Source: Burkholderiales bacterium (GTDB lineage: Bacteria > Pseudomonadota > Gammaproteobacteria > Burkholderiales > Casimicrobiaceae). From it: 64,000 bases of DNA. The position numbers and the translations under genes are program-made. The stretch is taken from NCBI GenBank assembly GCA_031260355.1, contig JAIRJZ010000043.1, forward strand, positions 62,001-126,000, in the 5' to 3' direction. Positions 15,004-46,752 of this stretch are shown piece after piece (within the stretch, counting starts at the first letter, position 1; each line of letters starts with the position of its first letter). The notes beneath the pieces were generated by a model. That model did not search any database, was not told the origin of the DNA, and saw nothing but the letters and a program-made list of their open reading frames with translations.

Positions 15004-15202
15004 CATGGATCGCGCGTCTTCGATGCGCACCTGCCCAGCAGTCGTAAGACTGCGAACCCAAAGACCCGTTCACTCCAGGAAGCCGGGTCGGACTCGAAAG
15101 AGTTTGGAGTTTCAATCCTACTTTTTTACCCATCGGGGAAACACTCTTTCCCCTTGGGGATGGTGTTTCTCCTTTTTTTACTTCGTCTTAAGGAGAAATA
15201 CC
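15004..15202 (+). ncRNA. Pseudoknot leader plus SD switch, DUF3577 gene
   Basis: The 5' hairpin is GCGCGTC/GATGCGC (15012/15022). P1 is GCAGTC-gtaa-GACTGC (15038-15053) and P2 is GACCCG/CGGGTC (15063/15084). P3 is ACTC-gaaa-GAGT (15092-15103), and the pseudoknot is CTCCA/TGGAG (15073/15105). Then comes a nested hairpin GGGGAAA/TTTCCCC (15135/15147). The segment ATGGTGTTTCTCC (15160-15172) pairs over 13 bp with the SD and start codon region 15192-15204. It can instead pair with GGGGAAACAC (15135-15144). Confidence 0.7.
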
Positions 15203-15706
15203 ATGAACCAAGCTCAAACCACCAAATACTTCGATCTGCATTTGAAGGGTATCGGTTACCTCAACCGTATCCGTGAAGTCAAACCGAAGAAAGGCGATTC
15301 TTTCTGGGCATGCTCAATCGCGGCATTGCGTGGCAATTCCGATAAACCCGAGTACACAAATCTCGACTGCCACATCAACGGCGCAGAAGCTTTAAAGCAG
15401 ATTCGCCGTTGTGTTAATGCTGTTGAAGCCGATAAGAAAGTTCTGATCGGCTTCACGGTAGGCGATATTTACCCTGAAACGTTCGAGTTCAAGAACGGCG
15501 CGAGGAAAGGCGAAGAAGGAATTTGCAACAAAGGTCGTCTGCTTTTCGTGAAGTTCATCATGATCGACGGCAAGGAAGTGTACAGGGCACAGCGTGAAGA
15601 GAACTCTGCTGACAACACTGATGCTCCGGCACCAGCGCAGGCGGAAGCCCAACCGGAGAAAGAAGCGGAGGAAACCGCTGCTGCTGATTCGGAAGAATCT
15701 TTCTAA
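15203..15706 (+). CDS. STY4534-like ICE replication protein, DUF3577
   Basis: A 167-residue DUF3577 protein (MNQAQTTKYFDLHLKGIGYLNRIREV), with a compact beta-rich domain to about residue 130 and an acidic Ala/Glu-rich tail. The family occurs in SPI-7/PFGI-1 ICEs and is often annotated as a replication protein; biochemical function is not known. ATG 15203 follows AAGGAG, which the leader can sequester. A hairpin terminator follows 18 bp after the stop. Confidence 0.85.
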   Translation: MNQAQTTKYFDLHLKGIGYLNRIREVKPKKGDSFWACSIAALRGNSDKPEYTNLDCHINGAEALKQIRRCVNAVEADKKVLIGFTVGDIYPETFEFKNGARKGEEGICNKGRLLFVKFIMIDGKEVYRAQREENSADNTDAPAPAQAEAQPEKEAEETAAADSEESF

Positions 15707-15724
15707 TCGCAAATGTCCGCATGG

Positions 15725-15750
15725 AAAAGACCTCTTATGAGGTCTTTTCT
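15725..15750 (+). terminator. Terminator/attenuator after DUF3577 gene
   Basis: AAAAGACCTC-TTAT-GAGGTCTTTT, a perfect 10-bp stem ending in a T tract. It lies before the next leader, so readthrough may be required for the following gene. Confidence 0.75.
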
Positions 15751-15752
15751 TT

Positions 15753-15815
15753 TCAACCCACCGGGGAATGCTTTCCCGATGGGGGTGGTGTTTCCCAGTT
15801 TTCAGGAGAAGCATC
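15753..15815 (+). promoter_or_regulatory. Nested-hairpin SD-switch leader, S1
   Basis: CGGGGAA/TTTCCCG hairpin (15762-15778) inside CCC/GGG. The segment GGTGTTTCCC (15787-15796) can pair with GGAGAAGCATCAT (SD plus start) with one bulge, or with upstream GGGGAATGC. Same design as the DUF3577 leader without the pseudoknot part. Confidence 0.6.
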
Positions 15816-16214
15816 ATGTCAAACAAAGCAGTTTTAGATTTAATCAACAGCCAACCTTTCGAGGAACTCTCAATAGCCGAGCTTGCTCACGCATATCTGA
15901 TGCGCTGTGGCTCGATGTGCAGGAGATGGGAACTCAAACTGGCCGGACGCAAAACGGTGTCAGATCTACCTAACAAAGCCAAGGCGGAAGGAGCATATCT
16001 GTTTTCGCTGGATGCAATCAAGGGGAGATGGCCGGAAGCGGAAAAGCTCATTGCTCGGTATCCCTCTGTTGCGCTTAGCTATGCGTATTACGTTATCAAA
16101 GACAGATGGCCGGAGGCGGAGGAAACCATCGCTCAAAGCCCGATCTGGAACAACTGTTATCAGAACTTCCTTGAGGATCTCAGTAAGGTTTCTGAGGCGG
16201 TTGACTCGATGTAG
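15816..16214 (+). CDS. Hypothetical protein with RWPEAE repeats
   Basis: A 132-residue helical protein. ATG 15816 is preceded by CAGGAG. It has two close repeats around GRWPEAEKLIARYPSVALSY and DRWPEAEETIAQSP, a motif of ~25-residue helical repeats found in several phage and mobile-element proteins. Function unknown. It is the last gene before a terminator and the transfer operon. Confidence 0.7.
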   Translation: MSNKAVLDLINSQPFEELSIAELAHAYLMRCGSMCRRWELKLAGRKTVSDLPNKAKAEGAYLFSLDAIKGRWPEAEKLIARYPSVALSYAYYVIKDRWPEAEETIAQSPIWNNCYQNFLEDLSKVSEAVDSM

Positions 16215-16225
16215 TTCTGTTTCTC

Positions 16226-16270
16226 AACGGCAAGCTCTTCCATCGGAGGCGCTTGCCGTTTTCTTTTTCG
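16226..16270 (+). terminator. Terminator before the transfer operon
   Basis: AACGGCAAGC (16226) pairs with GCTTGCCGTT (16251), followed by TTTTCTTTTT. Confidence 0.8.
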
Positions 16271-16345
16271 GGGCACAAAACCCTTAATGCATAAATAAAC
16301 CGAAAGGAGCAATTTCAGTTTTTTTGTTGGCCTCGCGTGTGTGTT

Positions 16346-16362
16346 TTGTCATCGTATGACAA
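16346..16362. promoter_or_regulatory. Operator-like inverted repeat upstream of pilL
   Basis: TTGTCAT-cgt-ATGACAA, perfect 7-bp arms, 22 bp before the first transfer gene. A dyad in this position suits a dimeric regulator of the transfer operon. No other copy was noticed in the window. Confidence 0.55.
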
Positions 16363-16383
16363 CGTTACCGCAAAGGGGTACCT

Positions 16384-16896
16384 ATGAAGCCTATTTATCT
16401 CGCGCTGATTGCTGTCCTGATTTCGGCATGTGCGCAGCAGCCGGTTGTTGAACCGGAACCAAATCCGATCGTGAGTCCCGTCGTCGAAAACCCGACGGTC
16501 AGGTATAGCCGGTACACCTTGGTTGCAGCCACACCGTCAATGGATCAGGTCGATCTGCTCTCACAGATCGTCGATACACGGATTCCGGCAAGCATGACGC
16601 CGAGTATCAAGGAAGCGTTGGGTCATGTGCTTTTGCACACCGGCTACGGCTTGTGCCCGCCGCCGAATCCCGAAGTCGAAACCCTCTATTCACGCCCGTT
16701 GCCGGCGGCGCACTACCGGATCGGCCCGATGCCGTTGCGTAGCGCACTGATGCTCGTGGCCGGGCCGGCGTACCAGGTCATGAGCAATGACATCACTCGG
16801 ACGGTCTGTTTTACCGCCAAACCAGACTATCTGACAACGGCGCCGGCAGTGACCGATGTTGGGGAAACTGCGAATGCAAAGGAGGAAATCAAATGA
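16384..16896 (+). CDS. pilL: PilL-like ICE lipoprotein (TIGR03748 type)
   Basis: A 170-residue lipoprotein with a signal peptide ending in LISAC (lipobox). The family pattern follows: RYSRYTLVAATPSMDQVDLL, GYGLCPPP, RPLPAAHYRIGPMPL and VCFTAKP. This is the N-terminal PilL_N/PFGI-1 PilL region, which opens the transfer region of these ICEs and is related to proteins of type IV pilus/secretin assembly. SD AAAGGGG precedes ATG 16384. Its stop overlaps the next start. Confidence 0.85.
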   Translation: MKPIYLALIAVLISACAQQPVVEPEPNPIVSPVVENPTVRYSRYTLVAATPSMDQVDLLSQIVDTRIPASMTPSIKEALGHVLLHTGYGLCPPPNPEVETLYSRPLPAAHYRIGPMPLRSALMLVAGPAYQVMSNDITRTVCFTAKPDYLTTAPAVTDVGETANAKEEIK

Positions 16897-17525
16897 ATCC
16901 TCGCTTTCACTGGCCGATGGTTTTTCTGGTGTTCTTGCTGGCCGGATGCTTCGGCGGCGGCGAAGAACAGAAAGATGCTGCAAGTATCAAGTCACAGATC
17001 GGGGATCAGTCTTCACGCATTCAGTCGATTCAGACCGATATAGACGACATCAAAGCCAAGTCAAATGTTGACGACAAGACATTGGCCGTACTTGCTGAAT
17101 ATATAGATTTGGTCAAGACGGATCTTCAAAGCTTGTCTGATTCGCAGGATGCGACGAAAGCGGACAGAACGGAACTCACCTCGCTGAACGAAAAGATTGA
17201 AGGCATTGCTGCTCAAGTTTTGAGGCTCACAGAACAGGTCAATACCCGGAGAGCCGAGTCGGCGCCGGCGCAGCCACGGGCGGCTGCCCCTGCTGTTGTC
17301 AGAGAGAAGAAAAAACCCGAACCGCCCTTCGTGCTTGTCGGAATTGAATACCGGGGACAGGAGCCGTTCCTGGCGGTGGTGGCCAAGGGGGGGAAGAATC
17401 TATCCGAGGTGAAGTTGCTGCAACCATTGGATTTCGCGGCTGAAGATTGGCGTTTGAGATCGTTTGACGCCAGTCAGGCGACCTTCTTCGTTGACGGCCA
17501 GGACATAACAATCGCGCTGCCATGA
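16893..17525 (+). CDS. Coiled-coil lipoprotein of the transfer operon
   Basis: A 210-residue protein with signal peptide and lipobox (LLAGC), a helical coiled-coil segment about residues 30-115, a Pro/Ala linker, and a C-terminal beta domain (PFVLVGIEYRGQEPFLAV). The layout resembles PilP/TraP-like periplasmic lipoproteins. It overlaps both neighbours by 4 bp. The name is uncertain; location in the periplasm is well supported. Confidence 0.7.
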   Translation: MNPRFHWPMVFLVFLLAGCFGGGEEQKDAASIKSQIGDQSSRIQSIQTDIDDIKAKSNVDDKTLAVLAEYIDLVKTDLQSLSDSQDATKADRTELTSLNEKIEGIAAQVLRLTEQVNTRRAESAPAQPRAAAPAVVREKKKPEPPFVLVGIEYRGQEPFLAVVAKGGKNLSEVKLLQPLDFAAEDWRLRSFDASQATFFVDGQDITIALP

Positions 17526-18316
17526 AAACATCCGCGAGCCTTCTTTTTCTTTGGCTGGTCTTGCTGGTGTCAACCGGCGCCCTGGCGCAGAAATCTGATC
17601 TGACGCCGAATTCCATGAATTCGCAGATTCGATTTCTGCCGTCTCTTGTGACGAAACCGTTGCCTGAGCAGGATCGGCTTGTCGAGGAAGATTCGCAGTC
17701 ACGGGCGACACAAATCCGACGATGGGAAGAACAGTCAAAGCGATGGAGTCTGACTTCCGAAGATTGGGCGCGGTACGAGGAAATCATGAAGGGGCCGAGG
17801 GGGTACTGGTCGCCGAATCTCGATCCTCTTACGGCGCTCGGCGTTGAAGCTCGGAGCGAGAACGAACGTGTCCGTCTTGCTCAAATACAGGTGAGGATGG
17901 AGGCAGAACGCGCCGAGCGCGAACTCTCTTACCAGAAAACCTACGACGCGGTTTTCAAGAAAGTGTATGGCAACTTGCTTCCGTTTGCTCCCATGCCGGC
18001 GCAAGCGCCTAAAGGCCCCCCTCGGGTGGCTTTGTTCGTCAAAACGAATTGCCCTGAGTGCGATAAGAAAGCGAAGCTGCTGCAAGATTCAAAAACACCG
18101 TTTGACGTTTATATGGTTGGCAGCGGTGGCAAAGACGCGGTGATACGGGATTGGGCAAAAAATGCTGGAATCAGTCCGGCTCTGGTCAAGGACAAAACGA
18201 TCACGTTGAATCACGACAACGGGACGTTGGTTTCGGTTGGAGGCAACGAGAAAGACAAGTTTCCGTTTGTCTATCAGATGATCGAGGGAACCGGGCAATG
18301 GGTGCGTACAGAATGA
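17522..18316 (+). CDS. PFL_4693-family transfer protein (TIGR03759 type)
   Basis: A 264-residue protein with a signal peptide (cleavage after ALAQ), a conserved central region (RWSLTSEDWARYEEIMKGPRG) and a C-terminal thioredoxin-like segment with CPEC near residue 180. Family members are periplasmic proteins of type G mating systems; the CxxC suggests a disulfide role. It sits between the coiled-coil lipoprotein and the transglycosylase, with overlapping starts. Confidence 0.85.
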   Translation: MKTSASLLFLWLVLLVSTGALAQKSDLTPNSMNSQIRFLPSLVTKPLPEQDRLVEEDSQSRATQIRRWEEQSKRWSLTSEDWARYEEIMKGPRGYWSPNLDPLTALGVEARSENERVRLAQIQVRMEAERAERELSYQKTYDAVFKKVYGNLLPFAPMPAQAPKGPPRVALFVKTNCPECDKKAKLLQDSKTPFDVYMVGSGGKDAVIRDWAKNAGISPALVKDKTITLNHDNGTLVSVGGNEKDKFPFVYQMIEGTGQWVRTE

Positions 18317-18861
18317 TTCTGTTGCTGCTGTTGTCGGCGCCGGTGCTTGCTACAGCACCGGTAGAACCGCCTCACGCTTACTGCGTTGCGGCCACGAAAG
18401 CGCAAGTGCCACCGAAGGTGCTTTACGCCTTGGCGTTGCAGGAGTCCAGGGCGGCGCTGCCGAGCGGCGTGAAGCCATGGCCATGGACGTTGAACATCGC
18501 CGGCGAACCATGGCGATTTACGGACAGAGACAAGGCTTGCAGGGCGCTATCCCTGGCGGTCGAGGTGGTCGATCCCAAGCGGATCGACGCTGGTCTGGGG
18601 CAAGTCAACATCGGTTGGAACGGCAGCAGGTTCGGGTCGCTCTGCGAGGCGCTCGATCCCCAGAAAAACTTGTTGGTCAGCGCACAAATCCTGCGCGAAC
18701 ACTACGAGAGCACCGGCGATTGGGTCGCGGCTGCGGGACGGTATCACCGTCCCGCCGGGGGCGAACCGGCTGCTCGTTATCGCTCGGAATTCAAGGTACA
18801 CGCTGCGCGGGTTCTCCGGGTGTCGGTGAACGACGTGCCGACAGCCCTGGGCGCTTTGTGA
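18313..18861 (+). CDS. Lytic transglycosylase of the transfer system
   Basis: A 182-residue SLT-domain protein. A short hydrophobic signal sequence is followed by AKVQPKVLY-like helix with the catalytic Glu in LALQESR (about residue 50). GLGQVNIGWN and AAAGRYHRPAGG follow, the usual ES, GLMQ and AY-type motifs. It cleaves peptidoglycan locally to let the secretion channel through the wall. The start ATG 18313 forms an ATGA overlap with the previous gene; ATG 18298 in frame is an alternative. Confidence 0.88.
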   Translation: MILLLLLSAPVLATAPVEPPHAYCVAATKAQVPPKVLYALALQESRAALPSGVKPWPWTLNIAGEPWRFTDRDKACRALSLAVEVVDPKRIDAGLGQVNIGWNGSRFGSLCEALDPQKNLLVSAQILREHYESTGDWVAAAGRYHRPAGGEPAARYRSEFKVHAARVLRVSVNDVPTALGAL

Positions 18862-18870
18862 GGTGACTGT

Positions 18871-19446
18871 ATGAAGCTTTGGAAATCTCTTTTGTTGGCA
18901 GTTTCGCTTTTCGGGCTGGCCGGTTGCGCTCATCACATTGAGTACGGCGGAAAGTGCTTAACCTGCATCAACGATCCGATCACCGGCGATCCGGTCAACT
19001 ACGACCCTGAAAAGATCGGAAACAAGCCGGTTCCTAGCAACGATGTCTCGAAGACGGTCAGGGACACTTCCACCAAGACCGAGACGGGCACGGTGGTGTT
19101 GTCGTCACCGGTGAATGTCGATTCCGCGTTCGCGGCGATCAAGCCGGAATTCGGTTTTCAATCGCCTGAGGAGATCAGGCGGCAGTACGGCACAACGTCT
19201 GAGTGGATTTTTCTCTCGGCGGAATACGGCTACGACGTTAATCCTGGCGCGTATTACATGATGCGCCGCACATTGAATCACGTCAGTGACGGTGTGACTT
19301 ACAGGGATGTCGTGATCGAGTGCCACATCCAGAAGGAAGGCTCCGGGTCGAAGATCACGATGACCTGGTGGAAGGACGGCATTCTGAACGGTAAAGCTTT
19401 TACCGACAGCTTGCTGCGGCGGACGGAGAAGGTGCTGCAGCGATGA
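18871..19446 (+). CDS. Hypothetical lipoprotein of the transfer operon
   Basis: A 191-residue lipoprotein (signal peptide, lipobox LAGC near residue 19), then CLTC, a Thr/Ser-rich linker and a C-terminal beta-rich domain ending in a basic helix. No family recognised. It is not usually found at this position between the transglycosylase and the PFL_4695 gene, so it may be element-specific. SD GAGG lies before ATG 18871. Confidence 0.7.
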   Translation: MKLWKSLLLAVSLFGLAGCAHHIEYGGKCLTCINDPITGDPVNYDPEKIGNKPVPSNDVSKTVRDTSTKTETGTVVLSSPVNVDSAFAAIKPEFGFQSPEEIRRQYGTTSEWIFLSAEYGYDVNPGAYYMMRRTLNHVSDGVTYRDVVIECHIQKEGSGSKITMTWWKDGILNGKAFTDSLLRRTEKVLQR

Positions 19447-20282
19447 AAAACTATCATGTCGTGTTTATAGATCCTACTATAAAAGCTATCAAAGTACTTG
19501 GCCGCTTCAATGAAGAGTGGTTCACTTGTTTTTCCTTTGTCTTTTGTGAGATTGCCAGCGCAATTTTTAAGACTGCTTTGTTCGTTTGCGCTCTACGTTT
19601 GCTGTTTCTTTGTTACCAGGAAGACGCAACCTTTGAACATTTACTCGATTTCATTGGTGGAGGGAAAATGTTATTCCTTACCGCGTTACTTTTCCCTTTT
19701 GCGTATGTTCTTGACCCGGCAAATAAAACACCAACTGTCATCTTCTTTTTGAAGTTGGCTTGTAGCATAGTTTTTTCCATCTGTATTCTCCTTCTTATTC
19801 TCTTTGGTGGAAGTGCCAAGGCTGCGTCTCTGACCGTAGTAGAAGATCACGGCGGAGTTTCGGCGCTTCCCTATTACGAGAGGCTACAGCCGAATCCGCA
19901 AAATTCTAACATCAGGGAAGCGAAACCGATTGTTCAACAGGGACCGGTGACAGAGGCGCAAATGCTTCCTGTTGTGAGCAGGAAACTCTCACCAGGTCGC
20001 TTTGCGGCTCGTACCAACAACGCCGGCGGGTTGATTCAACCGCTGTTTCTTGTCGGCACGGATGAATTGTCCGTTGCGTGGCTTAAGCAGAGAGGAGCCG
20101 CTTTGCGAGAGATTGGAGCGGTTGGCCTGGTGGTGAATGTTTCTGATGCCAGCAGCCTTGCTGCGCTCCGAAAGGTTGCTGATGGTCTGACGTTGATTCC
20201 GGCCAGCGGTGACGACATCGCTGGATTACTGAATATTGATCACTACCCGGTTCTGATTACCAGAACCGGTATCGAGCAATAA
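19443..20282 (+). CDS. PFL_4695-family transfer protein with extra membrane domain
   Basis: A 279-residue protein. Residues ~128-279 (AASLTVVEDHGG onward) match the PFL_4695/TIGR03765 family, with NNAGGLIQPLFLVGTD and HYPVLITRTGIEQ at the end. The first ~127 residues are unusual: three to four hydrophobic helices encoded in clearly A+T-richer DNA, where family members normally have only a signal peptide. It looks like an in-frame fusion or insertion; the original signal peptide may be the last hydrophobic segment before AASLTV. Confidence 0.8.
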   Translation: MKNYHVVFIDPTIKAIKVLGRFNEEWFTCFSFVFCEIASAIFKTALFVCALRLLFLCYQEDATFEHLLDFIGGGKMLFLTALLFPFAYVLDPANKTPTVIFFLKLACSIVFSICILLLILFGGSAKAASLTVVEDHGGVSALPYYERLQPNPQNSNIREAKPIVQQGPVTEAQMLPVVSRKLSPGRFAARTNNAGGLIQPLFLVGTDELSVAWLKQRGAALREIGAVGLVVNVSDASSLAALRKVADGLTLIPASGDDIAGLLNIDHYPVLITRTGIEQ

Positions 20283-20303
20283 AACGATTGCGAGGGAAAA
20301 GGC

Positions 20304-22535: not shown

Positions 22536-22536
22536 T

Positions 22537-22815
22537 ATGGATAAATCATTATCGTCGCTGGCAACAAGGACGACTATCGGCCTTGTCTATGTCGAGGGAA
22601 GCAGCGTCAACAATGCTTCACAACTGTTGCAGAAGGTTTTGAGCAACGCTATCCAATACGATACGGCGTACCTTCTTTTCAGCGAACTGCAAACGCTTGG
22701 CTTCTCGCCGGCGGGGGTGATGGTCAACGAGGACACGGCCTCGGCGATCATCGTCGATCCGAACATCGGTCAGGTTCGCATTTGCTGCCATCACATCAAG
22801 GTCATGGTGCACTGA
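22537..22815 (+). CDS. Small hypothetical protein of the transfer operon
   Basis: A 92-residue protein, MDKSLSSLATRTTIG, with a central VNEDTASAIIVDPNIGQ. No signal peptide or membrane segment; no family recognised. It starts right after the traD stop and ends 1 bp before the DUF4400 gene, so it is co-transcribed and probably translationally coupled. It may be cargo lodged in the operon. Confidence 0.6.
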   Translation: MDKSLSSLATRTTIGLVYVEGSSVNNASQLLQKVLSNAIQYDTAYLLFSELQTLGFSPAGVMVNEDTASAIIVDPNIGQVRICCHHIKVMVH

Positions 22816-22816
22816 G

Positions 22817-23554: not shown

Positions 23555-23556
23555 CG

Positions 23557-38181: not shown

Positions 38182-38247
38182 TTCTGTATCCTCTGTGTCC
38201 TTTTTAACATAATGCTGGCGGGAAGGGCAAGCGTTTTTTGTCAGGGG

Positions 38248-38276
38248 TTGGCATTCTTTGCCATAAATACTACACT
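38248..38276 (+). promoter_or_regulatory. parDE promoter
   Basis: TTGGCA (38248-38253), 17-bp spacer, TACACT (38271-38276). TGGCA and TGCCA form a small dyad over the -35, a plausible antitoxin operator. Transcription would start at about 38283, the first ATG, so the mRNA may be nearly leaderless. Confidence 0.5.
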
Positions 38277-38282
38277 GTGGCC

Positions 38283-38848: not shown

Positions 38849-38920
38849 TCACAGCCAAAGGCACTGTGTCTGATGGGCAAGTCGATTTTCCGGGGTATCC
38901 AGATACCTTCCAAATCGCCC

Positions 38921-38979
38921 TGAGCCGTTTTAGCGGGTCGGTTTTCCGGCTCAGACCGCTGAAAACGCCCTTTCGGGCG
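38921..38979 (+). other. Competing hairpins downstream of parE
   Basis: TGAGCCG (38921) can pair with CGGCTCA (38947). Alternatively TTTTAGCGG-TC can pair with GACCGCT-AAAA (38954 onward). The arms interleave, so the two folds exclude each other. A third hairpin CGCCC/GGGCG follows at 38966-38979. There is no T tract. It may act as a 3' end or as part of the next leader's promoter region. Confidence 0.4.
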
Positions 38980-39004
38980 ACTTCAGGATAAAAACGCAAG
39001 GGGT

Positions 39005-39033
39005 TTGACATTTTCCCCAAGGGGGTGAAAAAT
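39005..39033 (+). promoter_or_regulatory. Promoter of the accessory gene cluster
   Basis: TTGACA (39005-39010), 17-bp spacer, AAAAAT (39028-39033). The -10 is weak. Transcription would start near 39040 and enter the pseudoknot leader. It probably serves 39211-46752. Confidence 0.55.
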
Positions 39034-39039
39034 ACCAGT

Positions 39040-39210
39040 CAGGAACGTCGTCGCTGACGACACCTGCCCAGCAGTTGAAAGACTGCGAACCCCAAGACCC
39101 GAATCGCTCCAGGTAGCCGGGTCGGACTCGCAAGAGTTTGGAGCTTGATCTACACCCTCGTTGGGAGGCTTCCCAACAGGGAACCTCCCTTTTTCTTTTA
39201 GGAGGTTCTC
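39040..39210 (+). ncRNA. Pseudoknot leader plus SD switch, coiled-coil gene
   Basis: Hairpins GTCGTC/GACGAC (39047/39056) and GCAGTT-gaaa-GACTGC (39071-39086); P2 GACCCG/CGGGTC (39096/39118); P3 ACTC-gcaa-GAGT (39126-39137); pseudoknot CTCCA/TGGAG (39107/39139). A hairpin GTTGGGA/TCCCAAC follows. GAACCTCC (39181-39188) is perfectly complementary to the SD segment GGAGGTTC (39201-39208), and also largely to GGGAGG (39163-39168) upstream. Confidence 0.7.
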
Positions 39211-39687
39211 ATGGGAACACCAGCGGTAGAGTTATCCACGCAAAGCTTGGTCAAAGCAGGTTTCAAATACGAACAAGCTGACGCATTGGTAAGACTGATG
39301 GATCTGAAAATGACAAATCTTTTAACGCAGGAATATCTCGATTTGGCGCTTGGCCGGTTTGCCGACCAAGTAGCGAATAGTATTTCTGCGGCTCGGAAAG
39401 AAATTGTCGATCTTCGTACCGAAGTGAAGCAAGAGATTGCCGAGCTTCGTACCGAAGTAAAGGATTTGAAGCGGGAACTCAAGGACGACATCAAAGATGT
39501 CCGAAATGAGATGAAAGACCTGAAGCAAGAACTCAAAGACGACATCAAGGATGTCCGAAATGAGCTTGCTCTTGGGTTTGCTAATATCAAACTGGATGTT
39601 TCGGAACGCCATAACAAGCAATTGCTATGGATGGCCGGAATTATCGGTCTGGCGTTGGCGGCTGCCCGTTTGCTTTTCTCCTTCTAA
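39211..39687 (+). CDS. Coiled-coil protein with C-terminal membrane anchor
   Basis: A 158-residue protein resembling DUF1640/CCDC90-like proteins. A short globular N-terminus (KAGFKYEQADALVRLMDLK) leads into a long charged coiled coil (about residues 60-130) built of near-repeats such as LRTEVKQEIAELRTEVKDL. One membrane helix lies at the end (about 138-156). The DNA repeats reflect the protein repeats. Function unknown; first gene of the accessory cluster. Confidence 0.78.
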   Translation: MGTPAVELSTQSLVKAGFKYEQADALVRLMDLKMTNLLTQEYLDLALGRFADQVANSISAARKEIVDLRTEVKQEIAELRTEVKDLKRELKDDIKDVRNEMKDLKQELKDDIKDVRNELALGFANIKLDVSERHNKQLLWMAGIIGLALAAARLLFSF

Positions 39688-39705
39688 CCAGTAGCCTTAC
39701 TCATC

Positions 39706-39776
39706 CACCCTGACGGGGAAATACTTCCTCGTTACGGGGCAAGTGTTTCTCCGTCGCTTTTCTTTGGAGAAACACA
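39706..39776 (+). promoter_or_regulatory. Nested-hairpin SD-switch leader, S2
   Basis: Hairpin CGGGGAA/TTCCTCG inside CCC/GGG. GTGTTTCTCC (39743-39752) is a perfect 10-bp complement of GGAGAAACAC (39766-39775), which is the SD and the bases up to the start codon. It also pairs, with two G-U, to GGGGAAATAC (39715-39724). Confidence 0.7.
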
Positions 39777-40163
39777 ATGTCCACCACGTTTACACCCGCT
39801 CGGCCTTCGGTCGTCGGCGCGTTTTTGCATACCTCCGGGTTTCTGTTCGGAAGGATGTGCAGATTCACATTCGACTTTTTACGTGAGACAACCCGTAGCC
39901 GACGTTATGTAGGTCAGGAGTTGAATTCACAGATACAAAAGCTGCGTCCCGCACCACAGCCAAAACCGAGAAAACACTACTCGATAGAGGAAATGGAGCA
40001 GACACCAGCGGTTCTGCGTCTGACTGGACAGAGCCAGGAAGACTGGTACAGGATTAACGTCCTGGAGCCGGAAGCTCACCGTCTTGCAGCGAAGCAAGCT
40101 GACGATGACGAATATTTCAGTTTGATTTTCACCGAACCAGAGGAAGGAGAGCATCATGTCTGA
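39777..40163 (+). CDS. Hypothetical ICE accessory protein
   Basis: A 128-residue protein: N-terminal hydrophobic/aromatic segment (VGAFLHTSGFLFGRMCRFTF), basic middle, and a C-terminal domain with TGQSQEDWYRINVLEPEAHRLAAKQ. No family recognised. It overlaps the next gene by 8 bp. Confidence 0.6.
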   Translation: MSTTFTPARPSVVGAFLHTSGFLFGRMCRFTFDFLRETTRSRRYVGQELNSQIQKLRPAPQPKPRKHYSIEEMEQTPAVLRLTGQSQEDWYRINVLEPEAHRLAAKQADDDEYFSLIFTEPEEGEHHV

Positions 40164-40398
40164 TGCGCAGATTGATCGTCTTGATGCACTTGTTCCTGAT
40201 GTTGCCAAGAATAAAAGCACTGTCGGGTATTTAAGCACTGGCGAAAAGCTGTACGTCTATCTAGCAGCCAATCGTATAGATTTGCTTGAGACAGAAGGCT
40301 ACACCATTGCCGAGGCGTTAGTGCGCATTGGCGATTCATGGGTAATCGAACTCCTTTCTCGATGGCGATACGCCGGCAACCCTAAAAATTTCGGCTGA
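40156..40398 (+). CDS. Small hypothetical ICE accessory protein
   Basis: An 80-residue protein (MSDAQIDRLDALVPDVAKNK), acidic, with GEKLYVYLAANRIDLLETEGYTI in the middle. No family recognised. It has no leader of its own and overlaps the previous gene, implying translational coupling. Confidence 0.6.
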   Translation: MSDAQIDRLDALVPDVAKNKSTVGYLSTGEKLYVYLAANRIDLLETEGYTIAEALVRIGDSWVIELLSRWRYAGNPKNFG

Positions 40399-40418
40399 AA
40401 AGCCATTTTTCATCCCTC

Positions 40419-40466
40419 AACCCTGACCCTCCTGGTCGGGGTTTTCTTTTTCTTAGGAGAAACACC
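40419..40466 (+). promoter_or_regulatory. Nested-hairpin leader, S3
   Basis: CCCTGACC-ctcct-GGTCGGGG (40421-40441) forms one continuous stem, followed by a T-rich stretch, then the SD segment AGGAGAAACACC typical of the family. The explicit anti-SD segment seen in other copies is missing. It could act as a terminator or attenuator. Confidence 0.55.
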
Positions 40467-41057
40467 ATGATTCAACTTAATGGTCACTTGGCCATACGCA
40501 CCATTTCCGGTCGCAACGGCGACTTTAACGTCGGTAGGCTGACGACCTCGATCGGGGAGTTTGTGATCAAGGACGCCATGCTCGATCAGAACAAAGAAGG
40601 CAAGTATCAAGGCAATTTTGTCATTACTGAGATCAGCCCTTCCTACTATACCTACGGTGGTCGTCTGGTAGTCGAGATCCGTGCCAAGCTGGACAGCATG
40701 CAACTGGACGACGTGGACGATCTGACCTTCGAGGAAGCCGAGCGCATCGAGAGCAAAGAACGCGATCCGATCGAAGAGGAACGGCAGCAGCGTCCCTCGC
40801 GGAAGGCAACTTCTGAAATCCCCGACGACGAAAAACCGTTCGGGATGGAGACCGAAGAGGCTGAGGCAACTACTGAGGAAGCCGATGAAGATCCAGACAA
40901 GGTTCTTTTCGGGATTCTCTGGCCTCTGAGCGAATCTGTGCGGCTCGATGTTACCGTTGACCGTCAAACGCTTCGTGCGCAAACCAAGAGATTGGAGCAA
41001 TTGGGTTATGAACTGGATTTCAAGACTCAGAGCTGGAACACTCTCAGAAGTTTTTAA
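40467..41057 (+). CDS. DUF3275 family ICE protein
   Basis: A 196-residue DUF3275 protein. The conserved N-terminal domain (MIQLNGHLAIRTISGRNGDFNVGRL) and GKYQGNFVITEISPSYYTYGG lie within about 100 residues. An acidic linker and a C-terminal helix-rich part follow. The family is confined to ICEs of this group and integrative plasmids. Function is not known; the OB-like beta pattern may indicate nucleic-acid binding (inference). Confidence 0.83.
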   Translation: MIQLNGHLAIRTISGRNGDFNVGRLTTSIGEFVIKDAMLDQNKEGKYQGNFVITEISPSYYTYGGRLVVEIRAKLDSMQLDDVDDLTFEEAERIESKERDPIEEERQQRPSRKATSEIPDDEKPFGMETEEAEATTEEADEDPDKVLFGILWPLSESVRLDVTVDRQTLRAQTKRLEQLGYELDFKTQSWNTLRSF

Positions 41058-41083
41058 CTTAATGTTATGAAAGGACTAAACCT

Positions 41084-41371
41084 ATGAGCACCTATCTCAC
41101 AATCGTAGTTCGGATGCCAAGCGACGAAGGCGCAAAGACCAGCATCAACGAAGCTATAAGGATGCTTGATCCATTCTGCACCGCTATGTCTTTGGAAGAC
41201 GAAATAACTGTCCTCGAAATGATCGAGCAGCATGAGGACTTCTCGGATCACATCGCCGACGACGCACGAATAAAAGCCAGAGAGCTTCATGAAGCAAATG
41301 AATCCCTGGCCACTATGACTGCCCTTTGTAAGAAAGAACTCGGCGAGAAATCGAATTCTTCCTTTGATTGA
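41084..41371 (+). CDS. Small hypothetical ICE accessory protein
   Basis: A 95-residue protein (MSTYLTIVVRMPSDEGAKTS) with beta-rich start and acidic helical end. SD AAGGA precedes ATG 41084. It lacks the shared structured leader. No family recognised. Confidence 0.6.
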   Translation: MSTYLTIVVRMPSDEGAKTSINEAIRMLDPFCTAMSLEDEITVLEMIEQHEDFSDHIADDARIKARELHEANESLATMTALCKKELGEKSNSSFD

Positions 41372-41384
41372 TTTTTTTACTTTT

Positions 41385-41444
41385 CCAACCCTGCCGGGTT
41401 TTTCCCGTCAGGGGGAAGTCCGGCTATTTCATATGGAGAACATC
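41385..41444 (+). promoter_or_regulatory. Nested-hairpin leader, S4
   Basis: CCCTG (41389) pairs with CAGGG (41409), enclosing CGGG/CCCG (41395/41404), the same nested form as the other copies. The anti-SD pairing is weak here. The start codon chosen downstream is ATG 41445. Confidence 0.5.
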
Positions 41445-41825
41445 ATGGGATGGCTTTATTTTGCAAAAACAAAGGAACAACTGATCGACGAACTTACCTC
41501 CTCAGAGGAGAACTCAGAGAGACGGTTGGATGTTCTGGAATATGAACTCAACGGCGACGGCGATACCTTGTGGACAGTTACCAAACTGACCTGCAAAGGC
41601 AGCGCCGAGGAACCCAAAACGTTTATCACTTGTTTTCTGCTGGATGCTTCACAAGGCAAATGGGGATACAAGGATATGGATGAAGGTTGTGGCCCTTATT
41701 ACTACGATTGCCCTTTGCGATTCCTCGACATGGCTCAGCACTACACCTGCGAGAAAAGGCGAAATCTTGTCAGGGAATGGCACCGTAAATACGGGGTAGC
41801 CAATCCTGCCGGCGCAGTCGCGTAG
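41445..41825 (+). CDS. Hypothetical ICE accessory protein
   Basis: A 126-residue protein from ATG 41445 (SD GGAG seven bases upstream); ATG 41433 is in frame but overlaps the leader. It begins MGWLYFAKTKEQLIDELTS and contains YYYDCPLRFLDMA and KRRNLVREWHRKYG. The GWLYF start and overall pattern resemble a small DUF family of antirestriction-associated or plasmid proteins; I cannot name it with certainty. Confidence 0.65.
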   Translation: MGWLYFAKTKEQLIDELTSSEENSERRLDVLEYELNGDGDTLWTVTKLTCKGSAEEPKTFITCFLLDASQGKWGYKDMDEGCGPYYYDCPLRFLDMAQHYTCEKRRNLVREWHRKYGVANPAGAVA

Positions 41826-41834
41826 GCTCTTTTT

Positions 41835-41896
41835 TTCACCCCGTGGGGCGTGTTTTGCCCCAGGGCAAAACCGCCTCTTTCATTTTGGAGACTGTT
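41835..41896 (+). promoter_or_regulatory. Hairpin leader, S5
   Basis: GGGGC/GCCCC can form the family's nested hairpin. Alternatively GTTTTGCCC pairs with GGGCAAAAC extended by GGCG/CGCC. The two folds are mutually exclusive. No clear anti-SD. Confidence 0.5.
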
Positions 41897-42505
41897 ATGC
41901 CCAATCAACAACTGGCATGTTCTGTCATTGAACTGCCCGATCTGGTCGTCGATGCTTGCATCACCGACCATTCCTGTAACCTGATTTTCGGCTCATTCTG
42001 GGGACGGGACACCGCCATCCAGGAATTGCTGGCCAGAATCACCCTGAACCCGTCCGAGTCGCTGGCGCTGACAAGCATCACGCTCGATGGAGCCGGGATT
42101 CACTCACCGGTGTTCTTTCACAAGGATCTGCTCGAAAAGAAAATTGGCCGGAGCTATCCGGGCACCCTTTTCGGGAGCATGACCCACCTGTGGCTGCTCG
42201 ATAGGCGCGCCCTGGAACCTGACTATGCCAATCATTCGGCGTACCTGCTCTACGGTGCGGACGAAGAGGCATTAGCAAAGACATGGCCGTTGATCTGCGA
42301 TCTGGCGCCATACCCTTTACAGGAGCACTGGAAGCCCGAAACGCTCAGGGTCATTGCTTTGAACGACATGATGGTTTCCATGAAAACCATCCTCGGCAAA
42401 GTGACCTGTTTTCAGATCAGTCTCAACGTCGAAATATTGCAGCAATCGCTCAGTCAGTCGATTCGTTCTGGAAAGCTGTCAGCTCTGCCGGAACCGGCAG
42501 CCTGA
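41897..42505 (+). CDS. Hypothetical ICE accessory protein
   Basis: A 202-residue protein starting at ATG 41897 behind TTGGAG. It has IELPDLVVDACITDHSCNLIFGSFWGRDTA at the N-terminus and an alpha/beta pattern throughout. Found beside DUF6094 methylase genes in related ICEs as far as I recall, but I do not recognise a family. Its end contains a CTGCCGG/CCGGCAG hairpin. Confidence 0.6.
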   Translation: MPNQQLACSVIELPDLVVDACITDHSCNLIFGSFWGRDTAIQELLARITLNPSESLALTSITLDGAGIHSPVFFHKDLLEKKIGRSYPGTLFGSMTHLWLLDRRALEPDYANHSAYLLYGADEEALAKTWPLICDLAPYPLQEHWKPETLRVIALNDMMVSMKTILGKVTCFQISLNVEILQQSLSQSIRSGKLSALPEPAA

Positions 42506-42516
42506 CCCTCTACACC

Positions 42517-42536
42517 ACGCCGGCGATCGCCGGCGT
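42517..42536. repeat. 20-bp perfect palindrome before the methylase gene (leader S6)
   Basis: ACGCCGGCGATCGCCGGCGT, exactly palindromic, 30 bp upstream of ATG 42566. In RNA it folds as a hairpin in the place of the shared leader structure; in DNA it could be an operator. It contains GATC and GCGATCGC. Confidence 0.65.
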
Positions 42537-42565
42537 TCAACCTTTCACTTTAAGGAGAGAAATCC

Positions 42566-44071
42566 ATGGCCCTGATGTTTCCGCGCCTGGCGCGCAATTT
42601 CGCCAGAAACGGGTATTACCCGACCGATGAGGTCACACTTTCACGCACACTCCAAGCGATCGCGCCGGCAGACGCCGGCATGATCCGGGTGCTTGATCCC
42701 TGCGCCGGCGAAGGCGTGGCCATTGCCGAGTGCGCTCATGCGCTCGGACGTGGCCGCGTCGAAGCCTTCGCCGTCGAGTACGACTACGAACGGGCAGAAC
42801 ATGCCCGGACGTTGCTGGACAGGACGCTCAGGAGCGACCTGATCGACACCGTGATCACACGGCAGTCCTTCGGGCTGCTTTGGCTGAATCCACCCTACGG
42901 CGACCTGCCGAGCACCCTGGACGGCGATGCCTACCAGGGAACCGGAAGGAAGCGGCTGGAGAAGCTTTTTTACCAGCGCAGTCTCCCGCTCTTGCAGTAC
43001 GGCGGGGTTCTGGTGTTCATCATCCCCAACTACACGCTCGATACCGAGCTGAGTAGTTGGATCTCTAACCACTTTTCCGACGTGCGCGTTTACGCGGCGC
43101 CGGAAGATCAGTTCAAACAGGTCGTCATCCTGGGTATCCGAACCAGGCGCAACGACCGGGCTTCCGCTGCGGATGCGAAAACCACCCGCGACAAGCTCCT
43201 GGCGGTCGGCAGCGATCGCTCAGTAGCCGAAGAACTGCCGGAAGAATGGCCGTTCGAGGCTTACACCGTTCCTGCCGCCCAAAAGGAGGTGGAACACTTC
43301 TACCGAATTTCCCTGGAGCCTGAGCAGTTTTCCTCGGAAATGCAGCGGCTCGGCGGCCTCTGGCCGGAGTTCGATCTTCACTTCCAACGAGCCGGCAGAC
43401 AGCCGCGCCAGCCCGCCAGGGCGTTATCACCCTGGCACCTGGCACTGAGTCTGGCGGCAGGGGCGATTTCCGGCGTAGTCACTTCCCGATCTGGCAAAAC
43501 CCTGATCGTGAAGGGCAACACCTACAAGGAGAAAGCCTCAAAGGTCGAATTCACCGAGGACGAAGACGGCAATATCACCGAAACGCGGACGCTGGTGGAC
43601 AAGTTTGTTCCGGTCATCAAAGCCTGGGACATGACCCCTACCTCTGAAACGTATGGATGTGTATTGACGATCAGTTCAACCGCAGCTCTGCCGCCACAAG
43701 CGGCAGAAGCACCTACAGATGATGTGTCTGCCGAGGTGAACATGCCGATGGTTGTGCAGTTGCCGGCCAAGCCGCTTTTTCCACCAGGGCAAGTGGTGAT
43801 GACCGATGGCGTCAGCCAACACGTTGAATGCGGGGAATTTAACCCAAGCTCTTTTCTCGCCAGACACTTCGTCGGCGATTGGGGAGATCTCTGTCCAAGC
43901 GACAAGAAGCAGAACGATCGCGCTTTGAAGTCTGGGGAGGACAGGCTGTTTTCTTCCTACAACCTTGATAAAGGGTACGAGGATAGACATGGTCTTCCTG
44001 CCGATAAGCTCTGGATCATCACCGAGTGGGATCGCAGTGTGACGACGTTGCTGTTTCCGTCTGAATATTGA
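42566..44071 (+). CDS. DUF6094-type DNA methylase
   Basis: A 501-residue protein. The SAM-binding motif VLDPCAGEGVAIAE is near residues 39-53 and the catalytic NPPYGD motif of adenine-specific DNA methylases is near 110. Then comes DTELSSWISNHFSDVRVYAAPEDQFKQVV. The C-terminal half is ICE-specific. The family belongs to the conserved accessory cluster with the following helicase and may protect or mark transferred DNA (inference). Confidence 0.85.
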   Translation: MALMFPRLARNFARNGYYPTDEVTLSRTLQAIAPADAGMIRVLDPCAGEGVAIAECAHALGRGRVEAFAVEYDYERAEHARTLLDRTLRSDLIDTVITRQSFGLLWLNPPYGDLPSTLDGDAYQGTGRKRLEKLFYQRSLPLLQYGGVLVFIIPNYTLDTELSSWISNHFSDVRVYAAPEDQFKQVVILGIRTRRNDRASAADAKTTRDKLLAVGSDRSVAEELPEEWPFEAYTVPAAQKEVEHFYRISLEPEQFSSEMQRLGGLWPEFDLHFQRAGRQPRQPARALSPWHLALSLAAGAISGVVTSRSGKTLIVKGNTYKEKASKVEFTEDEDGNITETRTLVDKFVPVIKAWDMTPTSETYGCVLTISSTAALPPQAAEAPTDDVSAEVNMPMVVQLPAKPLFPPGQVVMTDGVSQHVECGEFNPSSFLARHFVGDWGDLCPSDKKQNDRALKSGEDRLFSSYNLDKGYEDRHGLPADKLWIITEWDRSVTTLLFPSEY

Positions 44072-44081
44072 GGAGGTGGCG

Positions 44082-44378
44082 ATGGAGCTTTTCTTGTACC
44101 ACGGACGTTACGATTCCAAGGCTGTTATGGACAGTTGGGGTTTCGATGGGCCGAGACTGAAAGGCGTGACTGGTCTCAGATACACCTATACCAACCTTGA
44201 ACTCTGGTTTGAATCACCCGAGGCAGCGCAGGAAGCCAAGAAGCTCACGGATTGGGCGGATGGGGCTTTCGAGAAATCGCTGGAGATAACTGAAAGCCAC
44301 GGAATGGTTGTGTGCCATCTCACCGATGAAAACGGCGCTACCCGCGCTGCTTACTTTGGCGACTGGATTTTAGAGTAG
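44082..44378 (+). CDS. Small hypothetical protein
   Basis: A 98-residue protein (MELFLYHGRYDSKAVMDSWGFDGPRL) starting at ATG 44082 behind AGGAGG. It lies between the methylase and helicase genes in one transcription unit. Small alpha/beta pattern with VCHLTDENGATRAAYFGDW at the end. No family recognised. Confidence 0.65.
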   Translation: MELFLYHGRYDSKAVMDSWGFDGPRLKGVTGLRYTYTNLELWFESPEAAQEAKKLTDWADGAFEKSLEITESHGMVVCHLTDENGATRAAYFGDWILE

Positions 44379-44397
44379 TTTTTCACCGCAGTTTTTT

Positions 44398-44466
44398 CAA
44401 CCCTCGCGGGCATGTACTTCCCGCAGGGGAGTTGCATGTCCGCTTTTTCTTTTTAGGAGATACGAC
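44398..44466 (+). promoter_or_regulatory. Nested-hairpin SD-switch leader, S7
   Basis: CCCT/AGGGG encloses GCGGG/CCCGC (44406/44420). TGCATGTCCGC (44433-44443) can pair over 11 bp (two G-U) with GCGGGCATGTA (44406-44416). Through CATGTC it can instead pair with GACATG (44464-44469), which holds the helicase start codon. The two pairings exclude each other. Confidence 0.65.
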
Positions 44467-46752
44467 ATGCAAACGATTGACACAACCGCCTTGGAAACAA
44501 TCAACAAGGCAAATTTCAACATCGGACTGACCCAGTTCATCGACGAATTCGGCGATGGGTTGATGGAGTCCCTCAACCGATCGAATCCACCCGTTTACAC
44601 GGGAATGACCGCGCCGGTGCATTACGCCCGACAAGCGGCCATGGGCAGCCTTAACCGTAAGCCTTTCCCCCCTCAAGCGGAGGTGGTGCAAACCGTTTTG
44701 TCTATCCTTTTGGACAAGGGCGAACGAGCTGCGATCATCAACGCCGAGATGGGAACCGGCAAGACCATCATGGCGATCGCGGCAGCGGCAGCAATGAGGT
44801 CTGCCGGCTACCGCCGCACACTGGTCATTGCGCCGCCGCATCTGGTGTACAAGTGGCGGCGCGAGATCCTCGAAACCATCCCGGATGCCAGGGTTTGGGT
44901 ACTCAATGGCCCGGACACGCTGGCAAAGCTGCTGAAGCTCCGGGCGGAACTCAACCTACCCTACGACAGCAAGCCGGAGTTCTTCATCCTTGGCCGGATC
45001 AGGATGAGAATGGGGTTTCACTGGCGGCTGGCGTACAACCGCCGGCGAGGCGAAGACGATGTATTCAATGTCGCTTGCCCGGACTGCGGAACATTGATCC
45101 GCGACAGCGAGGGCAACCCTGTACCTGAGCAGGTTTTTCTGGAAACGGAAAAACGCTGCAAGTGTCCCAAATGCAAAGGGGCACTGTGGACGCTGATGCG
45201 ACCGCGCCAAGTCGATACCAACGACCGACGGCGGACGCTGCTTAAATCCATGTGCCGGATTCCAACCATCGGTGAGGTCCGCGCCGGCAAACTGGTCGAT
45301 CAGTTCGGGGAGGATTTTCTTTCCTCGATGCTGGCCGATAACGTCCACGAGTTCATCAATCTGATGGACGCCAAGGGCAAGTTTGTCTTTACGGATCGGC
45401 AAGCCAAGCGGATGGAACGGGCGCTGGCGACACTGGAGTTCGGTTGGGGCGAAGGCGGCTACCAGCCGACCGAGTTCATCAAGCGGTATTTACCCGATGG
45501 CTTTTTCGACCTGCTGGTGGTCGATGAAGGCCATGAATATAAAAACTCCGGTTCTGCCCAGGGGCAGGCGATGGGGGTTCTGGCGGCAAAGACTCGCAAG
45601 ACGATTTTGCTGACAGGCACCCTGATGGGCGGCTACGCCGATGACCTGTTTTTCCTGTTGTTCCGCGTCCTGACCGATCGAATGATCGAAGACGGATTCA
45701 AACCCAGGAGAAACGGAAGCATGGCTTCCGCCGCGTCCGCCTTCATGGCAGAACACGGCGTCCTCAAGGACATCTATACCGAACGGAATGACGAATCGCA
45801 CCGAACCGCCAAAGGCAAGAAACTGTCCGTCAGGACGGTGAAAGCCCCCGGCTTCGGGCCGAAAGGCATCCACCGTTTTGTTTTGCCCTTCACGGTGTTT
45901 CTGAAGCTCAAGGACATTGGCGGCAATGTATTGCCGGCGTACACCGAAGAGTTCCGGGAAACTGCCATGTCGGACAAGCAAAGCGGAGCCTACAGGGGTT
46001 TGTCTATCAGATTGACCCAGGAGCTTAACGAGGCGCTGGCAAAGCGCGACACGACGCTTCTGGGCGTCGTGCTGAACGTTTTGCTGGCATGGCCGGACTG
46101 TTCTTTCCGACCGGAGGTCGTCAAGCATCCGCGTACCGGAGATCAGCTGGCTTCCGTGCCGGCGATTTTCGGGGATGAGGATCTGATGCCGAAGGAGAAG
46201 GAACTGATCGACATCTGCCTGGAAGAGAAGGCTCAAAACCGCAAGGTGCTGGCCTACTCGATCTACACTGGAACGCGGGATACCACGTCACGGCTCAAGA
46301 AGGCGCTGGAACAGGCCGGACTGAAGACGGCGGTGCTACGCAGCAGCGTGGAAACGTCCAAGCGTGAGGAGTGGATTCTCGACCAAGTGGACAGGGGAAT
46401 TGACGTACTGATCTGCAACCCCGAGCTGGTGAAAACCGGTCTGGATCTCCTGGATTTCCCAACCATCGTTTTCCTCCAGACGGGCTACAACGTCTATACG
46501 CTGCAACAGGCGTCTAGGCGGTCGTGGCGGATCGGTCAGACTCAACCGGTGAAGGTGATTTTTCTGGGGTATCAGGGCAGTTCGCAGATCACCTGCTTAC
46601 AACTGATGGCCAAGAAGATCGCGGTGTCGCAAAGCACTTCCGGCGACATCCCGGAGTCGGGTCTCGATTCACTCAACACCGATGGCGATAGCGTCGAGAT
46701 GGCGCTGGCCAGGCAGCTTGTCACTGATAAAAATTTGGCCAAAGCCGCGTAG
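44467..46752 (+). CDS. SNF2/DEAD-like helicase with zinc motif
   Basis: A 761-residue superfamily 2 helicase. Motif I AEMGTGKT is near residues 94-101 and motif Ia IAPPHLVYKWRREI follows. A zinc-like CPDCG then CKCPKCKG is inserted near 202-240. Motif II DEGH lies near 352 and motif III LLTGTLMGG near 380. The C-terminal RecA domain ends in QQASRRSWRIGQTQPVKV (motif VI). It is typical of the ICE accessory cluster next to the DUF6094 methylase; a defence or antirestriction-like role is possible but unproven. Confidence 0.9.
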   Translation: MQTIDTTALETINKANFNIGLTQFIDEFGDGLMESLNRSNPPVYTGMTAPVHYARQAAMGSLNRKPFPPQAEVVQTVLSILLDKGERAAIINAEMGTGKTIMAIAAAAAMRSAGYRRTLVIAPPHLVYKWRREILETIPDARVWVLNGPDTLAKLLKLRAELNLPYDSKPEFFILGRIRMRMGFHWRLAYNRRRGEDDVFNVACPDCGTLIRDSEGNPVPEQVFLETEKRCKCPKCKGALWTLMRPRQVDTNDRRRTLLKSMCRIPTIGEVRAGKLVDQFGEDFLSSMLADNVHEFINLMDAKGKFVFTDRQAKRMERALATLEFGWGEGGYQPTEFIKRYLPDGFFDLLVVDEGHEYKNSGSAQGQAMGVLAAKTRKTILLTGTLMGGYADDLFFLLFRVLTDRMIEDGFKPRRNGSMASAASAFMAEHGVLKDIYTERNDESHRTAKGKKLSVRTVKAPGFGPKGIHRFVLPFTVFLKLKDIGGNVLPAYTEEFRETAMSDKQSGAYRGLSIRLTQELNEALAKRDTTLLGVVLNVLLAWPDCSFRPEVVKHPRTGDQLASVPAIFGDEDLMPKEKELIDICLEEKAQNRKVLAYSIYTGTRDTTSRLKKALEQAGLKTAVLRSSVETSKREEWILDQVDRGIDVLICNPELVKTGLDLLDFPTIVFLQTGYNVYTLQQASRRSWRIGQTQPVKVIFLGYQGSSQITCLQLMAKKIAVSQSTSGDIPESGLDSLNTDGDSVEMALARQLVTDKNLAKAA

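Follow-up and report, generated by a model that had tools for sequence, protein, structure and literature searches.

The window analysed here, a stretch of 64,000 nucleotides from a Burkholderiales bacterium (assembly GCA_031260355.1, contig JAIRJZ010000043.1, positions 62,001 to 126,000), is part of contig 83 of a 2.1-Mb draft genome and carries a conjugative element with a transfer system of the PFGI/MPF_G type, whose ATPase (28668) is a full-length match to TIGR03744 (traC_PFL_4706). The accessory and replication genes of this element encode a DUF3577 protein (STY4534-family replication protein of integrative and conjugative elements, ICEs), a DUF3275 protein, a DUF6094 methyltransferase, an SNF2/DEAD-type helicase and a glycine-zipper protein, and include unidentified open reading frames (ORFs). 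They are preceded by an RNA leader that looks like an undescribed, repeated control switch of this ICE family. The silence of dozens of genes in integrated ICEs of this family and their joint expression on activation are usually discussed at the promoter level only. If our reading of the leader is right, a gene-by-gene RNA lock with about ten copies in each element would be an additional level at which such carriers of resistance and catabolic genes are controlled, and would offer both a testable context for the orphan radC RNA and a natural library of more than 100 sequence-diverse bistable switches.

A shared leader before the accessory and replication genes

The original prediction, made from the letters of the DNA, named ten genes of the window (15203, 15816, 39211, 39777, 40467, 41445, 41897, 42566, 44467 and, on the minus strand, 50315) with a GC-rich hairpin nested in CCC/GGG shortly before the Shine-Dalgarno (SD) sequence. 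Nine of these leaders share one layout, namely CCC1, GGG1 plus loop (segment A), CCC2, GGG2, an anti-SD segment (B), a U-rich tract and the SD with the start codon (C), and 42566 is the single named leader outside it. Written as RNA, the leader of 15203 consists of CCC1 (15129), GGGGAAACACTC (A), TTTCCCC, GGGG (15155), GGTGTTTCTCC (B), TTTTTTT and AAGGAGAAATACCATG (C), in which B is complementary to both C and A. Gene starts were taken from the annotation or picked by their SD.

A covariance model of the leader (R1; 72 positions, 18 pairs) was derived from a MAFFT alignment of 32 leaders that were well aligned around the blocks; this training set includes five of the nine window leaders and excludes those of 40467, 41445, 41897 and 50315. 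Over the whole 2.1-Mb genome R1 gave nine matches at E ≤ 0.05, its E-values being rough, and these are exactly nine of the ten named leaders, all except that of 42566. Neither 100 kb of control sequence from the same chromosome nor the 62 kb of the same contig beyond the window contained a match to R1. A loose single-sequence three-part scan over whole loci found many matches within coding sequence and in shuffled DNA and was dropped for counting; a restriction to gene starts, and then the covariance model, took over from it.

Six leaders had been predicted to carry a segment complementary to the SD or start codon. Tested against dinucleotide shuffles of each leader, this stood for 15203 (p =.002), 15816 (p =.009), 39211 (p =.014), 39777 (p =.001) and 44467 (p =.044) and did not reach significance for 50315 alone (p =.20), which passes the three-part scan nonetheless. 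In line with what the prediction implied, the same shuffles revealed no significant anti-SD in 40467, 41445, 41897 and 42566, and among the other window genes (about 46) two had p <.05 for this complementarity, which is the chance expectation. The claimed decoy pairing of the segment with the arm of the upstream hairpin was recovered for 15203 (.015), 39777 (.002), 44467 (.002) and 39211 (.015; here the paired stretch begins outside the hairpin arm), and not for 15816 (.077) and 50315 (.33).

Pairing in the leaders of related elements

Related elements were collected from PLSDB (Pseudomonas, Stutzerimonas, Enterobacter, Comamonas, Paraburkholderia, Vibrio, Tistrella) and, by a genome search, from same-class genomes with the same gene block; a DUF3577-protein scan of one further genome-contig collection and a DUF3275 scan of viral contigs yielded no matches. 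In every related element many genes of the block carry the same leader in different letters, and the leader precedes many genes of the replication and maintenance block in related ICEs and plasmids of gamma-, beta- and alphaproteobacteria. Examples are a Vibrio leader at 10718 (A GGGAATAAT, B ATTGTTCCC, C GGAACAATC), the leader at 4037 of locus L066 (A GGGGGAAACGT, B ACGTTTCCTTC, C GAGGAAATGTC) and that of the DUF3577 orthologue at 8096 of locus L067 (A GGGTAAGCC, B GCGCTTGCTCC, C GGAGTAAGCGC). The full three-part leader was found before 41 of 98 module genes compared with 4 of 109 other genes and 4.2% of shuffled leaders (Fisher p = 8e-12).

Preservation of the pairing was measured in 72 non-redundant leaders that were selected by the CCC/GGG hairpin alone, blind to B. 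Segment B pairs with its own C at -11.8 kcal/mol and with swapped partners at -8.8 kcal/mol (z -9.9), and the corresponding values for A:B are -10.9 and -7.1 kcal/mol (z -13.1). The effect persisted when swaps were restricted to one element (z -7.9 for B:C and -10.4 for A:B) and, for A:B, when only the P1 loop was used (z -6.5), while the control pairings were null (A:C z 0.0, upstream flank with B -0.5, upstream flank with C 0.5); the 3' arm of P1 against C gave a weak z of -3.1. Swaps among orthologues only gave z -6.2 (B:C) and -7.6 (A:B) for the 20 leaders of DUF3577 genes, -3.6 and -6.5 for 15 helicase leaders, and -2.1 and -4.2 for 15 DUF6094 leaders. Homologous leaders thus keep the complementarity, on which the original prediction had staked itself, and its observation that the letters differ between copies while the complementarity is kept also holds on homologues. 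Such comparisons support a putative switch of SD, anti-SD and decoy that would be repeated as a per-gene leader over a regulon. In alignment A1, whose leaders were pre-selected for complementarity so that its pair counts are supportive only and not independent evidence, the compensatory changes in B:C exceed all 500 shuffles and the covariation score lies above every slid register; the A:B register is barely above its neighbours.

R1 gave 182 matches at E ≤ 1 over 665 kb of collected loci and matched 26 of 274 genomes of the same class. The leader occurs in all 19 genomes with a DUF3577 or DUF3275 homologue and in 7 of 255 others (p = 7e-24), a co-occurrence that is only in part independent, as R1 was trained partly on genomes of this test and its sensitivity, though not its specificity, is partly circular. 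In genomes without a DUF3577 or DUF3275 match the leaders stand before genes for RecT, a CbbQ-like AAA ATPase, DUF3150 and RadC. Phylum-wide, matches were found in 18 of 398 genomes, two of these in other classes, and the leader is thereby present in roughly 5 to 10% of the sampled proteobacterial genomes. No Rfam family matches the leader itself, no description of it was found in the literature, and the paper on the ICEclc transcriptome makes no mention of hairpins or untranslated regions (PMC2892462).

Two exclusive folds and a candidate lock on translation

Across 150 aligned matches the blocks CCC1, GGG1, CCC2 and GGG2 are 79 to 100% fixed and an unpaired A before CCC1 is conserved at.89, and the loop of A, B and C are variable. 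With regard to the conserved ligand-binding aptamer of a riboswitch, conservation extends to the pairing blocks and this one unpaired A, and the loops vary. Each fixed block has two alternative partners, one per fold. The closed fold consists of CCC1:GGG2, GGG1:CCC2 and B:C. The open fold pairs A with B and nests CCC2:GGG2 inside (in 40 of the 41 leaders examined), which makes the decoy fold one long hairpin with a U-tract directly after it, resembling an intrinsic terminator; this had been overlooked in the original prediction. An H-type pseudoknot that keeps the P0 and P1 stems while the loop pairs with B was rejected, as it leaves too few joining nucleotides and the long nested hairpin accounts for the same complementarity.

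In pre-selected leaders folded together with C, the closed fold is the more stable one by about 6 kcal/mol. For nascent RNA before C, in leaders that were not pre-selected, the median difference between the open and the best fold is 0.3 kcal/mol with the own B and 7.8 with a swapped B (p = 8e-15). In the growing transcript the mean equilibrium probability of A:B is.74 at 6 nucleotides past B, and that of B:C is.84 at the end of C. Because the nascent folds are nearly level and the closed fold is preferred once C is complete, the sequence appears adjusted for an open state early on and a closed one later.

On this modelling the leader is probably a cis-acting, default-off bistable RNA lock on the translation initiation of one gene, with pausing or termination as an added output, a reading to which we give a probability of about 0.6; our confidence in it and in the four rival explanations below overlaps in part. 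In the closed fold B would be free to mask the SD and start codon by pairing with C, and in the open fold the long hairpin would keep B off C and leave the SD exposed. Relaxed mRNA would be translated poorly, and good translation would be expected only if the open hairpin forms cotranscriptionally and persists, or is stabilised, until the 30S subunit arrives. With its U-tract the open hairpin might pause RNA polymerase or, where the copy is U-rich, as most copies in the window are, terminate part of the transcripts, because of which spurious transcription into the module would result in little protein.

Several points weigh against such a lock. All three parts are kept in only 41 of the 67 module genes that bear the hairpin, and the leaders of 40467, 41445 and 41897 retain the hairpin without a significant anti-SD, so that sequestration cannot be the sole function. 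The plain minimum-free-energy fold of leader 44467 is the open one. The energies are nearest-neighbour estimates that leave pseudoknots, proteins and ribosomes out of account, the co-occurrence test is partly circular as described above, and no trigger or factor was found among those looked for (CsrA, ProQ and a NusG paralogue).

Among known systems, the proposed lock resembles the repZ leader of the IncI-alpha plasmid ColIb-P9 (reviewed in PMC8383071), where an upstream loop pairs with the SD-hiding strand in a pseudoknot needed for translation. In keeping with the repZ logic, strand B of the present leaders is complementary beyond chance to the SD and start and, alternatively, to an upstream segment. 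However, repZ is one gene per plasmid and is controlled with an antisense RNA and a leader peptide, whereas about ten genes per element carry the present leader, and the open state here is a long nested hairpin with a U-tract instead of a pseudoknot. In the type I toxin mRNAs timP and aapA3, exclusive folds or metastable SD-hiding hairpins likewise time the exposure of the SD in cis (PMC11228461; PMC6733600), but these are single toxin genes with antisense antitoxin RNAs and without repetition over a regulon, and the metastable state proposed for aapA3 hides the SD, while the early state of the present leader would expose it.

Termination, radC RNAs and alternative explanations

The base of the long hairpin marks precisely where the U-rich tract begins, with U at.68,.60 and.72 in the first three positions and falling thereafter. 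A terminator score above 0 (d'Aubenton Carafa) was obtained for 17 of 63 leaders with A:B, for 6 of the 8 plus-strand window leaders scored and for 0% of shuffles; in GC-rich hosts the U-tract of most leaders is poor (about 3 U in 8) and the score lies under the terminator cut-off. Hairpin and U-tract are retained in 41445 and 41897, and the hairpin of 40467 is simpler, with a U-rich tail. The leaders may therefore have termination or pausing as a second output which, within the window, is perhaps the main one.

Also overlooked by the original prediction were promoter-proximal radC RNAs (RF01754) immediately 5' of the leaders of first genes. The window has no RF01754 match at the gathering score, and contains one divergent copy (25.8 bits) and two paralogues (Table 1), compared with 75 to 132 bits for the radC RNAs of homologous ICEs. 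In homologous elements 16 of 19 first leaders have a full-score radC RNA immediately upstream, at a median gap of about 8 nucleotides, and locus L058 contains two further cases. All three window copies start just behind a sigma-70-like promoter, as do 9 of 24 radC RNAs compared with 0.6% of random windows. These promoter positions and the gap to the leader indicate that the transcript begins with the radC RNA, the leader being a module of its own beside the gene. In GC-rich relatives the -35 region instead reads CCGATT, possibly a site for an activator; the Rfam model overlaps the -10 box at its 5' end. Although it shares the mobile elements and 5' untranslated regions of the leader, the radC RNA is a different and larger RNA (about 150 nucleotides), and the leader also stands before genes without one.

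RNA-based antitermination with internal terminators is known in Gram-positive conjugative elements, namely conAn of pLS20 (PMC8955417) and canT of Tn916 (PMC11658703), and RfaH was stated to be the sole processive antitermination known for conjugation operons of Gram-negatives (PMC8955417). With these as precedents, it is possible, though on balance doubtful, that the leaders are mainly conditional intrinsic terminators, in which CCC1:GGG2 and GGG1:CCC2 form the antiterminator and the long hairpin with its U-tract the terminator; processive antitermination, perhaps by the radC RNA, would let proper transcripts pass and B:C would silence the rest. The exact position of the U-tract, the terminator scores, the persistence of the A:B hairpin in 41445 and 41897, which have no anti-SD, and the radC RNAs at promoters and directly 5' of most first leaders speak for this. 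Yet most leaders of GC-rich hosts fall below the cut-off, the conservation of B:C would be superfluous under termination alone, none of the eight plasmids searched has a NusG paralogue, and the radC RNA is a processive antiterminator only putatively, by our own analysis.

A combination of both ideas is tentative and somewhat less probable still, namely a Gram-negative counterpart of conAn and canT with a double lock, in which the radC RNA would make the polymerase terminator-resistant, the long hairpin would stop unmodified polymerase and the alternative fold would hide the SD of transcripts that slipped through. Only transcripts from the element's own promoters, read through with the long hairpin intact, would then be both full length and translatable. 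The arrangement of a promoter and a 5' RNA followed by genes with terminator-like hairpins between them is shared with the conjugative elements of conAn and canT, but those are Gram-positive and have no anti-SD lock, and antitermination by the radC RNA is only proposed here. Two exclusive hairpin sets, one with a U-tract, also recall classical attenuators; unlike in these, the SD-pairing segment lies within the terminator stem, so that the SD is accessible in the 'terminator' fold and masked in the 'antiterminator' fold.

The original prediction further held that one trans factor or ligand could open all leaders at once, which is not supported so far. We consider it improbable that all leaders are jointly opened or closed by a trans-acting protein, RNA or small ligand that recognises the near-invariant CCC/GGG hairpin, even though the four blocks and the unpaired A are near-fixed while B, C and the loop vary, and the leaders cluster in one functional module. 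The fixity of the blocks is also explained by their two partners in two folds, and leaders occur in genomes without a DUF3577 or DUF3275 match. The host genome as a whole (about 96% complete) lacks homologues of CsrA and ProQ, which is unusual for its class, and among the related plasmids CsrA is present on one of seven, ProQ is absent and, as noted, eight have no NusG paralogue, so that these three candidates are unsupported as trans factors. A single antisense RNA for all leaders is unlikely because A and B differ between them.

Slightly less credible again are static leaders, in which the GC hairpin and an SD-hiding hairpin merely lower leaky expression and the decoy match arises incidentally from a likeness of A to C, as might follow from an ancient duplication of the ribosome-binding site. 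The closed fold is indeed the ground state of most full leaders, as would be expected here, but own A:B is better supported than B:C in the swaps, the A:B pairing survives among orthologues whose A, B and C all differ (for example TAAGCG in L067 and AAACAC in the window), and the equality of the nascent folds is lost on swapping B. That the elements work as single-stranded DNA in transfer (priming, single-strand promoters, protein loading), a role suggested for the STAXI motif (PMC2864571) and suited to a mobile element near DNA-handling genes, is very improbable, as they track gene orientation (50315 lies on the minus strand), extend to the start codon and no further, and show pairing that is specific for the SD and start of the gene they precede.

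Table 1. Leaders, radC-like RNAs and promoter of the conjugative element (positions of the window)
Feature	Position	Strand	Details	R1
Leader of DUF3577/STY4534-family gene (ATG 15203)	15129..15204	+	CCC1 15129-15132, A 15134-15146, GGG2 15155-15158, long (open) hairpin 15135-15172, B 15160-15174, U-tract 15173-15179, C (SD to start) 15190-15204	52.2 bits
Leader of ORF 15816	15757..15820	+	CCC1 15757-15759, P1 15762-15778, GGG2 15780-15783, B ~15782-15797, SD 15804-15808	54.4 bits
Leader of coiled-coil ORF 39211	39155..39213	+	CCC1 39155-39157, long hairpin 39163-39189, B 39180-39190, U-tract 39190-39199, C 39201-39209	24.7 bits
Leader of ORF 39777	39708..39779	+	CCC1 39708-39710, P1 39713-39732, GGG2 39736-39739, long hairpin 39711-39756, B 39742-39753, U-tract 39758-39765, C 39765-39775	47.3 bits
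Leader of DUF3275 gene 40467	40417..40472	+	short hairpin 40419-40443, U-rich tail; no significant anti-SD	match
Leader of ORF 41445	41385..41450	+	long hairpin 41393-41424, tail; no anti-SD	match
Leader of ORF 41897	41835..41902	+	long hairpin ~41844-41877, U-rich tail; anti-SD weak	match
Leader of SNF2/DEAD-type helicase gene 44467	44401..44472	+	CCC1 44401-44403, P1 44406-44424, GGG2 44426-44429, long hairpin 44406-44443, U-tract 44444-44454, B 44432-44441 pairs start-codon context 44464-44472	41.3 bits
Leader of glycine-zipper protein gene (start 50315)	50322..50388	-	CCC1 50388-50383, P1 50380-50367, GGG2 50365-50360, B 50354-50346, C 50330-50322; single-leader anti-SD p =.20	25.7 bits
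Sigma-70-like promoter	14970..14999	+	TTGACA-18-AATAAT (11 of 12), immediately 5' of radC-like RNA 15009..15115	
radC-like RNA, 5' of leader 15203	15009..15115	+	paralogue of 39030-39147 by alignment	
Divergent radC RNA (RF01754), 5' of leader 39211	39030..39147	+	25.8 bits, E =.008, below gathering score (40 bits); promoter-like 39005-39033	
radC-like RNA, 5' of leader 50315	50395..50500	-	paralogue; promoter-like TTGACG-18-GATAAT at 50542-50513	

Other features were noted in passing. The element carries a UmuD-like and UmuC-like gene pair without this leader (47337-49158, from a reading of the translation). The gene start at 49159 has strong upstream complementarity (p =.006) and no CCC/GGG module, which is probably due to chance given about 57 genes tested. 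Between the DUF3577 gene and the next leader, and abutting that leader, lies an ordinary hairpin resembling an intrinsic terminator (15730-15756; AAAAGACCTCTTATGAGGTCTTTTC, then TTTTC). Within the same gene block of related elements, pieces of group II introns are found at 2568-4923 of locus L061 and 7403-7473 of locus L058. The Vibrio scophthalmi plasmid NZ_CP016416.1 (54941-58027 and both record ends) has two distinct clusters of leaders in near-identical copies, one near either end of the linear listing.

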